Both the position numbers and the translations under genes were made by a program. 49,812 nucleotides of DNA, from the NCBI RefSeq assembly GCF_000425865.1, contig NZ_AUEG01000014.1, positions 1-49,812 on the forward strand, given 5' to 3'. The stretch's first letter is position 1, and each line of letters begins with the position of its first letter. This stretch comes from Lacticigenium naphthae DSM 19658 (lineage in GTDB: Bacteria; Bacillota; Bacilli; Lactobacillales; Carnobacteriaceae_A). This document shows, piece by piece, positions 19,375-38,849 of the stretch. The notes beneath the pieces are model-generated. The model searched no databases and was not told the origin of the DNA. It saw only the letters and a list, made by a program, of their open reading frames with translations.

Positions 19375-19476
19375 AGAAAAGCGGATGCGGGAAAAAATCG
19401 CAAAGCTCGATTCGAGCTTCTTCGTCTAAAGGCTACATCCCATCCTTTAGCACTTTACGCTTTATCCCTACTCTTT
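19375..19476 (-). promoter_or_regulatory. tetrahydrofolate (THF) riboswitch
   Basis: The minus strand shows the class signature in order: AGAGTAGGGATAAAGCG near 19474, TAAAGTGC, the core GGATGGGATGTAGCC, ACGAAG, a variable hairpin AAGCTCG/CGAGCTT, and the closing CCCGCATCCGCTTT near 19378. The layout and conserved blocks match the THF riboswitch found upstream of folT genes. No T-run hairpin separates it from folT, and AAGGAGGCCTT can fold on the ribosome site, so control is probably translational. Confidence 0.88.
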
Positions 19477-19488
19477 TTGCTTCGCTTT

Positions 19489-26922: not shown

Positions 26923-27360
26923 TTAAACATCGTATTTTCTGTAGTCCTTATTCAAAATCCCTTTTTCCCGTTGAATATCTCTCCATTCTAAATGTCCAGC
27001 TTCTACTCCTTGTAAAATCATTTCAGCCGTACCCAAGTTGGTTGCTAAGGGGATGTTGTAAACATCTGATAATCGCATAAGGGCTGAGATGTCCGGTTCA
27101 TGCGGTTGAGAAGTTAAGGGGTCTCTCAAAAAGATTACTATATCTAATTTATTTTCAGAGACGTATGCCCCTATTTGCTGGTCGCCACCTAAAGGACCTG
27201 ATTTAAATCGATGGATGGGAAGTTGAGTTTCTTCAATTAGTCGCTTCCCCGTAGTTCCTGTAGCATACAAATGGTGCTTTCCAAGTAAGTCTTTGTATGC
27301 TGTTACAAATCTGACCATGTCATCTTTCTTTTTATCGTGGGCAATTAACGCAATATGCAT
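26923..27360 (-). CDS. mgsA: methylglyoxal synthase
   Basis: A 145-residue enzyme that converts dihydroxyacetone phosphate to methylglyoxal, a bypass of lower glycolysis when phosphate is short. [12 protein letters not shown] opens the protein. [11 protein letters not shown] and [13 protein letters not shown] (about 57-69) carry the conserved catalytic aspartates with [10 protein letters not shown]. The start ATG (27358-27360) has GGAGG upstream; the longer open frame is not needed. It diverges from the DJ-1-type gene. Confidence 0.95.
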
Positions 27361-27512
27361 ACTGCTTCCTCCTTCGCCTTCTTTATTTCCATAGTAGCAT
27401 ACTTGCACTCTATTTTTCATAAACAACGCCATTCACAAGCAATATAATTGCATTCATTCTTCCTTCTTCGTTAAACTAAAATTGGTCAAAATCATAAAGG
27501 AGGCTAAAAGAA

Positions 27513-28028
27513 ATGGGTAAGAAAGTAGCTACAGTTCTGACAAATTTATTTGAAGATGTTGAATTCACTTCTCCAAAGGAAACATTAGAGAAAGCCGGTC
27601 ATGAAGTTGTAACGATCGGTTTTGAAGCGGGTGAAATAGTTGAAGGGAAAAAAGAAAAAACTCAAGTTACTATTGATAAAAGTATCGGAGACGTTGACCC
27701 GTCAGATTTTGATGCCCTGCTTATTCCTGGAGGCTATTCTCCAGACAAACTCCGTAAAGATGAGCGGTTTTTGGACTTCGTTCGCGATTTTTCTAAAAAT
27801 AACAAGCCGATTTTCTCTATCTGCCATGCACCTCAGTTATTGATCAGCGCCGAAGTTGTAAAAGGAAAAGAAGTCACTTCCGTTAAGCAAGTCGCAATCG
27901 ATTTGAAGAATGCTGGGGCTCACTTTAGAGATGAAGCACTTGTTAAAGATAAGAGTGGACTGATTTCAAGTCGCACACCAACCGATTTACCTGTCTTTAA
28001 CGAGGCGATCATTGACGCGCTCAAATAA
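27513..28028 (+). CDS. DJ-1/PfpI family protein (type 1 glutamine amidotransferase-like)
   Basis: A 171-residue DJ-1/ThiJ/PfpI protein. The nucleophilic elbow IFSICHAPQLLISA carries Cys about residue 106, and the partner acidic residue is Glu in FEAGE or nearby. Members act as proteases, glyoxalases (methylglyoxal to lactate) or deglycases. The closest type seems to be B. subtilis YraA/YfkM. Its divergent pairing with mgsA makes methylglyoxal detoxification attractive but unproven. AAAGGAGG precedes the ATG. Confidence 0.88.
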   Translation: MGKKVATVLTNLFEDVEFTSPKETLEKAGHEVVTIGFEAGEIVEGKKEKTQVTIDKSIGDVDPSDFDALLIPGGYSPDKLRKDERFLDFVRDFSKNNKPIFSICHAPQLLISAEVVKGKEVTSVKQVAIDLKNAGAHFRDEALVKDKSGLISSRTPTDLPVFNEAIIDALK

Positions 28029-28047: not shown

Positions 28048-28096
28048 ACTTCCCAAAGTTAGATTCTCCACTCTAACGTTGGGAAGTTTTTTTTAA
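28048..28096 (+). terminator. intrinsic terminator after the DJ-1 gene
   Basis: Stem ACTTCCCAA...GTTAGA paired with TCTAAC...TTGGGAAGT (28048-28062 and 28071-28087) with one mismatch, then eight T. Confidence 0.9.
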
Positions 28097-28267
28097 CAAT
28101 AGTTTAGATATTGCTTTTACACATCGCAAAAGACTGTTTAATCAAGAAGTGCACAGTTACTAAAATAAGATTTTTTTCATCAATTCAAATCAAAAGTTTA
28201 GTATTTTCTCAACAAATTTTCTTTTTCTTTTGCTAAACTGTATTTAGTGCTAAAAACAAACTATAAA

Positions 28268-28339
28268 TCATCTCTTTTCTCCCCCTATGAAAAGAGTATA
28301 TCCCCTAAGCTGTCATATATATATATGGCAGTTTTTTTT
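28268..28339 (+). ncRNA. candidate small RNA A (C-rich loop)
   Basis: Hairpin CTCTTTTC/GAAAAGAG (28272-28279 and 28289-28296) has the loop TCCCCCTAT. A single-stranded linker containing ATCCCCTAA follows. An intrinsic terminator CTGTCATATA/TATATGGCAG (about 28310-28331) with eight T closes it. A -10-like TATAAA is at 28262-28267; no good -35 was found. The layout resembles csRNA and LhrC type regulators, which use C-rich loops to block Shine-Dalgarno sites. It has no host gene: nothing is encoded between the previous terminator and this one. Confidence 0.5.
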
Positions 28340-28390
28340 ATATATTTTACATAGTATAATCATACTTTCTTCACAATTTGCTAGTATAGT

Positions 28391-28486
28391 AATTTTATAC
28401 CCACAATAACCAATTTATTTATCTCTACACTCCTCCAAGTGTTGAGACCACTCCTTTTAGCCATCCAGTTTATTGGGTGGCTTTTT
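28391..28486 (+). ncRNA. candidate small RNA B (anti-Shine-Dalgarno loop)
   Basis: Hairpin CTC-T-ACACT/AGTGT-T-GAG (28423-28431 and 28438-28446) presents the loop CCTCCA. The linker ACCACTCCTTTTA can pair with AAAAGGAG. Terminator GCCATCCA/TGGGTGGC (28460-28467 and 28474-28481) is followed by five T. Possible -10 elements are TATAGT (28385-28390) and TATAAT (28355-28360), without a clear -35. It could instead be a leader attenuator of the downstream oxidoreductase gene, since the terminator lies 38 bases before its start. Confidence 0.5.
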
Positions 28487-28523
28487 CTATGTTAAAATAA
28501 AAAAAACAGAGAGGAGTTTAGCC

Positions 28524-38744: not shown

Positions 38745-38756
38745 CTTCTATTATGT

Positions 38757-38849
38757 ACATGTGACACATGGCGGAACGATACTTAGTGCTGCTTCCTTCC
38801 GGACCTGACACGGTTCATATGTCCGCCATTGTCACAAGGCCTTTCGGCA
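38757..38849 (-). ncRNA. ffs: signal recognition particle RNA, small bacterial (4.5S) type
   Basis: The minus strand holds the invariant apical core GTCAGGTCCGGAAGGAAGCA (around 38790-38809) between complementary arms TGTGACAATGGCGGA and TCCGCCATGTGTCACA. Length is about 93 nucleotides, without an Alu domain. A -10 TACAAT (38856-38861) gives a start near 38849. It lies just upstream of dnaX, as in most Firmicutes. It binds Ffh to target membrane proteins. Confidence 0.95.

Follow-up and report, generated by a model that had tools for sequence, protein, structure and literature searches.

The DNA analysed here, hereafter the window, is a stretch of 49,812 nucleotides from Lacticigenium naphthae DSM 19658 in which mgsA, encoding methylglyoxal synthase (26923-27432, minus strand; TIGR00160, 197 bits, cut-off 147), lies beside pfpI, encoding a protein of the DJ-1/PfpI family (27513-28028, plus strand; TIGR01382, 189 bits, cut-off 139), both genes being conserved neighbours by synteny. 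Downstream of pfpI, positions 28262-28486 contain two successive units, A and then B, each comprising a hairpin, a C-rich linker and an intrinsic terminator, as seen in the sequence and its predicted fold; the next gene downstream encodes a FAD-dependent oxidase whose best match, ThiO, falls below its cut-off. The initial annotation had described this two-unit layout, and it is present as claimed: none of 200 dinucleotide shuffles folded as well as or better than unit A (z -7.1) or unit B (z -4.9). Both terminators were also listed by a terminator scan (11 sites versus 3.7 expected in 5 kb). Elsewhere in the window, Rfam models identified a PreQ1 riboswitch (2849-2893), a THF riboswitch (19377-19477) and a small SRP RNA (38753-38840), all on the minus strand.

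Unit A, a predicted sRNA of ~95 nt on the plus strand (about 28246-28341), begins with a 5' hairpin (28272-28296) that exposes the loop UCCCCCUAU at 28280-28288, followed by a linker that folds as single-stranded (28297-28306, with UCCCC at 28301-28305) and by its terminator (28307-28338). Unit B, also on the plus strand and predicted at ~93 nt (about 28397-28489), starts with an unpaired, conserved leader (28397-28421, ACCCACAAYAACCAAYUUAUUU in the alignment), continues with a 5' hairpin (28422-28447) carrying the loop CCUCCA at 28432-28437 and a single-stranded linker (28448-28458) with ACUCCUUUU at 28450-28458, and ends in a terminator (28459-28489). B has two C/U-rich sites, both without UCCC, A has UCCC in its loop and linker only, and neither terminator loop is C-rich.

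The view that no ORF explains these units withstood closer inspection. The frames within them encode 35 and 40 residues on the plus strand and 27 on the minus strand, and the frame of the next gene reaches far upstream to a TTG start at 28473, inside the B terminator. Alignment of relatives further revealed indels in loop A that are not multiples of three, which argues against coding, and we rejected a coding explanation on these grounds.

Transcript starts were inferred from conserved -10-like hexamers. For A, a possible -10 element (TAAACT at 28234-28239, preceded by TGC) has counterparts in relatives (TTAAACT, CTAGACT and ATAGAAT) and no clear -35 element, while upstream of B a possible -10 element (TATAGT, 28385-28390) follows an 11-bp direct repeat, ATCATA-N5-TTCACA (28359-28375), that is a candidate response-regulator box; both B elements were also found by pattern matching. 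A consensus promoter scan listed neither promoter. Because the promoter-like stretch of B (28359-28390) is located between the two units, A and B are probably two separate genes, each with a predicted transcript of about 95 nt. The 225-base region thus contains two units, as proposed, but probably as two transcription units rather than a single element, and the sizes of about 70 and 95 nt that had been suggested give way to two of about 95 nt.

For unit B we built a covariance model (R1) from 17 sequences, the window and 16 others from two families, after dropping L006 as a near copy of L005; the window, itself among these sequences, scores 87.5 bits. RNAalifold on this alignment predicted the terminator alone as structure, with 7 of its 11 pairs changed on both sides. 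The 5' hairpin was tested using the structure taken from the fold and a gap-free alignment of 17 of the 18 same-family sequences, L046, whose loop has one extra base, being excluded. In this alignment 86.6% of the cells pair (69.8% in shuffles) and 27 cells are changed on both sides (8.8 in shuffles), and none of 500 shuffles reached either value or the covariation score of the hairpin. Two of the five covariation measures were not above shuffles, namely pairs changed on both sides (5 versus 4.5) and further pair types (12 versus 11.4), and slid controls paired in 23.5-45.4%. The loop region CUCCUCCAAG was invariant in all 17 sequences. The expected preservation of the stems in relatives was therefore confirmed for B, whose hairpin and terminator covary, whereas the stem of the compact form of A (CUCUUUUC/GAAAAGAG, 8 pairs) is kept but so nearly invariant across nine sequences that it gives no covariation. 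The leader of B, though unpaired, is among the most conserved parts of the unit.

Within the window's family (f1), R1 matched 21 of 27 genomes at E<=0.05: strongly (E<=2.1e-12) in 19, each with one strong match (G003 has a second, weak one), and weakly in G007 and G010. As 12 of the 19 strong genomes had given rows to R1, only seven are independent. The window's genome has one match, B thus being single-copy. Across the order, R1 matched 124 of 295 genomes at E<=0.01, which represent 37 of 74 genera and include 17 that supplied the model; single genomes have as many as 12 copies. Tandem head-to-tail arrays of B-like units occur in genus g21 of family f8 (L072, 254-743; L073, 215-899; L079, 294-1001), with steps of ~195 or 212 bases and up to 12 copies per genome.

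Comparison with Rfam in permissive mode placed B near Ref84 (RF02846), which is Enterococcus sRNA 84. B reached 36.2 bits and A 30.2 bits, both under the gathering score of 52, and B aligned to positions 1-87 of the 87 model positions, with leader, hairpin, ACUCCUU linker and terminator in the same order. Ref84 resembles B in its leader (UACC-ACAA-AACC), its C/U-rich hairpin, its ACUCCUUUU linker and its terminator, with recognisable sequence along the whole of B, and differs in its loop, which is CUCCUCCA in B and CUCUU in the Ref84 model. In 20 fetched regions chosen from the R1 match lists, R1 and RF02846 selected the same loci in L077 (two copies), L078, L082, L083 and L086, all above the Ref84 gathering score. 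Across the order, RF02846 matched 94 of 295 genomes at E<=0.01 and exceeded its cut-off in 40; the 14 control genomes gave no match at this E-value.

The LhrC model (RF00616, gathering score 110) gave 25.4 bits for A and no listed match to B at E<=10. A connection between B and LhrC emerged instead from family f7, which contributes no sequence to R1 and which we take to be Listeriaceae because RF00616 exceeds its cut-off in 8 of the 10 f7 genomes searched. In these ten genomes, five with and five without an R1 match in the order-wide search, R1 gave 21 matches, 20 of which coincided with RF00616 matches (at most 8 bases off at either end); the remaining one lies off LhrC (G052:C127:208-267). 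With 75 RF00616 matches in the same genomes and 20 recovered, R1 misses most LhrC genes, and G032 and G045 have LhrC with no R1 match. Since R1 recovers both Rfam-accepted Ref84 copies and LhrC genes, B is, as judged by these model comparisons, a divergent relative of both and a new member of the Ref84-LhrC relationship.

LhrC1-5, Rli22 and Rli33-1 of Listeria (RF00616) share with B a hairpin, a C/U-rich linker, a terminator and an ACAACAA-type leader. In contrast, LhrC is multicopy whereas A and B are each single-copy in the window's genome, and LhrC carries UCCC in three sites, namely its loop A, the linker and the terminator loop, according to PMC4132741, whereas B is without UCCC and the terminator loops here are not C-rich. 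PMC4132741 and PMC5880928 describe pairing of LhrC with mRNAs at Shine-Dalgarno regions, and the former also reports UCCC seeds in the loops of RsaE and FsrA. The likeness to RsaE/RoxS and FsrA consists in such seeds, and neither unit has an Rfam match to these RNAs. With the CiaR-controlled csRNAs of streptococci, several small C/U-rich sRNAs that block ribosome sites, the similarity is one of general principle. The comparison of A and B with csRNA and RsaE made in the initial annotation found no counterpart among the Rfam matches, and the box upstream of B presumably differs from the CiaR repeat. The proposal that the two units are tandem genes for base-pairing sRNAs with a layout like that of LhrC is, for these predicted RNAs, well supported. 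Other low-threshold Rfam matches (ncr1575, Phe_leader, VqmR and others) were discarded as far below their thresholds.

In the literature searched, which left most subscription journals outside, we found no function for Ref84 and no paper on Ref84, Enterococcus and sRNA together. None joined LhrC to Ref84 by title or start of abstract, and among the matches listed for sRNAs of Carnobacterium, Alkalibacterium and Marinilactibacillus none concerned A or B by title.

Unit A occurs in two forms, the compact one of the window and a long one. The model of compact A (R2) rests on nine aligned sequences, supplied by nine of the 14 compact-A genomes. R2 matched 18 of 295 genomes across the order: the window's (28238-28337, the window being among the R2 sequences), 13 of the sister family f2 with strong matches, and four of genus g36 at 43-48 bits. 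Two of these four matches (G079 and G284) fall on R1 matches, and we treat all four as cross-matches to B-type RNAs. The single R2 match in the window's genome indicates that A, too, is single-copy. Compact A is followed within 1.5 kb by a B of the same orientation in 13 of the 14 loci; the fetched stretch of L104 contains no B.

Long A is about 190-220 nt, has four runs of at least four C and, in L005, folds with z -4.95. A motif search located it in 15 of the 19 same-family loci that have a strong B, with 309-401 bases from A hairpin to B loop. Together with a copy ~1.5 kb upstream in G014, which differs from the others in its last C-rich site and its terminator, and with the compact A of the window, A precedes B in 17 of these 19 loci; G003 and G008 show no A within 1.5 kb of B. 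Of the 21 pairs predicted for long A, 11 are changed on both sides; nine of these 11 belong to the terminator, which has 13 pairs. Against Rfam, the one match listed for long A was Atu_C9 (20.4 bits), which lies on the opposite strand in L016. In each of the 14 compact-A loci, A also draws a weak R1 match (24.7-40.4 bits), which allows, without proving, a shared origin of A and B. A is, as far as these sequence searches go, a conserved partner of B with no library entry found, below every Rfam threshold. Accordingly, the suggestion of a new sRNA pair is kept for A, which is the newer of the two, conserved and paired with B, and is withdrawn for B, which is related to Ref84 and LhrC. In Pisciglobus halotolerans a repeated CTGAACTTGTCC.../...GAACAAGTT array lies between A and B (L009, about 1620-1950).

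The neighbourhood is likewise maintained. By tblastn in the fetched stretches, pfpI lies near B in 16 of the 19 same-family loci and near compact A in 11 of 14, and mgsA near B in 15 of 19 and near compact A in 13 of 14.

A strict form of the box upstream of B (TCAYA-N5-TTCAMA-N9-TANNNT) occurs just once in the genome that contains the window, namely at B. In the 27 family genomes it has 22 matches, 17 of them B promoters, versus 6 for a reversed control; G012 and G015, both with a strong B, have no match. In the 60 bases upstream, the looser TCAY-N7-TCAY was present in 22 of 29 B, 6 of 14 compact A, 6 of 20 LhrC and 0 of 14 long A promoters, as compared to means of 0.26, 0.09, 0.14 and 0.02, respectively, in 1000 base shuffles; the promoter sequences are related, so these counts are not independent. 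When spacings of 7-17 were scanned, compact A showed only 11, B also 8 (10/29) and LhrC also 9 (4/20). The window's own A is without the strict repeat. As stated in PMC4132741, LhrC transcription needs LisR, the LisR-responsive region lies upstream of -53 and no LisR consensus was known to its authors. The shared 11-bp repeat is perhaps a LisR-type site.

A further copy of the B promoter box, in one genome (G011; L143, 1501-1531), lies between a response-regulator frame and a frame that by eye resembles an ABC transporter. We rejected a wider box regulon: 17 of the 22 strict matches are B promoters, the L143 copy occurs in one genome and another, L148, has no obvious link. Before long A, a [CG]CTTA-N8-TAAGG dyad was found in 9 of 10 loci checked (L040, L042, L045-L047, L050, L052, L054, L055), ~70-76 bases upstream of the hairpin. 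A CiaR-like reading of this element was dismissed, as it is a dyad and not a direct repeat, and a second regulator may act there.

Apart from the A locus itself, the genome contains an exact match to GGGGAGAAAAG, which is complementary to the invariant part of A, only once. This match sits at the pepF ribosome site (TIGR00181, 455.6 bits for a partial protein against a cut-off of 490.6), where 12 contiguous bases are complementary to A. With one mismatch allowed, GGGGAGAAAAG has 49 matches versus 85 for its reversed control, the control thus being commoner; of the 29 near-matches inspected, a few others also lie at start codons. Duplex energies were ranked in a 400-kb sample of 20 stretches, in which the stretches with pepF and an S41 protease were picked on purpose and that with oppA was not. 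Here pepF ranks first for A, with 1 of 20 shuffled versions of A beating it and 2 more within 0.6 kcal/mol, and strong duplexes of A were not above shuffles (121 genes at -14 or lower versus 68-164). Duplex energy ranking was consequently set aside as proof of a target, because some shuffles come close to it or beat it and A shows no overall excess.

Among 30 pepF loci from 33 genomes searched, GGGGAGA is present at the pepF site in 16 of 18 same-family loci, including G008, where no A was seen; it is absent in G003 (no A seen) and G012 (which has A). It occurs in none of 12 f2 loci, though 10 of these genomes have A, which counts against pepF as a target outside the window's family. The string AAGGGGAGA precedes 2 of 336 predicted genes in the 400-kb sample of the window's genome, oppA (Opp4A-like, 637.5 bits, cut-off 650) and pepF, and 1 of 154 and 0 of 170 genes in samples of two relatives. 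oppA retains AAGGGGAGA in all 19 loci found in 30 genomes searched, G003 and G008 included, but this conservation is weakened as evidence because the oppC ribosome site (GGAATGA) is equally conserved, in 18 of 18 loci with oppC found. The duplex of A with oppA ranks 26 of 335. LhrC lowers oppA in Listeria, as reported in PMC5880928. On the basis of site complementarity, pepF is our best target lead for A and oppA a weaker one.

We therefore favour, at a probability of about 0.72, the explanation that A and B are separate trans-acting sRNA genes in a conserved mgsA-pfpI-A-B order, with LisR-like control of B and blocking of Shine-Dalgarno sequences. An OmpR-type (LisR-like) response regulator would probably switch B on through the 11-bp direct repeat, with A under the same repeat in some relatives, and by analogy the inducing signal would be envelope stress. 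The C/U-rich seeds, CUCCUCCAAG and ACUCCUUUU in B and CUUUUCUCCCC and UCCCC in A, would pair with Shine-Dalgarno regions and stop translation, as others have demonstrated for LhrC. By homology, A and B are thus likely stress sRNAs that block Shine-Dalgarno sequences under response-regulator control. In this explanation, sequence, folding, conservation, covariation (of B and of the long-A terminator), family links, synteny and the promoter repeat are computed, and transcription with its start points, the regulator, the signal and the targets are predictions.

The most serious competitor, which we hold to be unlikely, would leave B as an ordinary Ref84/LhrC-type sRNA and make A the 3' UTR and terminator of pfpI with a conserved hairpin. 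In most loci A does follow pfpI in the same orientation, and its promoter in the window is weak, having neither a clear -35 nor the strict repeat and being absent from the promoter scan. On the other hand, pfpI appears by eye to be followed by a terminator-like hairpin and T run of its own (~28049-28094; not in the terminator scan), in 3 of 14 loci (L101, L102 and L104) A neighbours mgsA and the 3-kb stretch yielded no pfpI, and the 11-bp repeat occurs in 6 of 14 compact-A promoters.

It is less probable still that the C-rich loops act as sponges or bind proteins instead of serving as mRNA-pairing seeds. This reading could draw on the shortness, repetition and near-invariance of the loops, on the conserved B leader, to which no role is assigned, and on the fact that A has no overall excess of strong ribosome-site duplexes over shuffles. 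Against it, the seeds of A and B both complement strings of Shine-Dalgarno type, and LhrC, a related sRNA, pairs with mRNA (PMC4132741 and PMC5880928). That A and B are functionless, terminator-like relics we consider very improbable: the covariation of B, the order-wide conservation, the conserved tandem order and the promoter repeat all speak against it.

LhrC is a well-studied stress sRNA of Gram-positive bacteria, with a five-copy set in Listeria. That R1, built from neither Ref84 nor LhrC, recovers members of both suggests a single family. A broader and more tentative idea, to which we give rather less than even odds, is that a single ancient sRNA family, spanning the order and governed by a LisR-type regulator, has LhrC, Ref84 and B as its branches. 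In the window's lineage and its sister family it would have become a fixed cassette of two genes between which the seeds are split, A (UCUCCCC) being directed at a few genes with an unusual GGGGAGA site (including oppA and pepF, for oligopeptide uptake and breakdown) and B (CUCCUCC) at canonical sites. A single Ref84/LhrC/B family would make rules comparable across the order, and the A-B cassette, as linked single-copy siblings with different seeds, would offer a simpler setting than the five-copy Listeria set in which to explore why sRNAs of this kind multiply and divide their targets.
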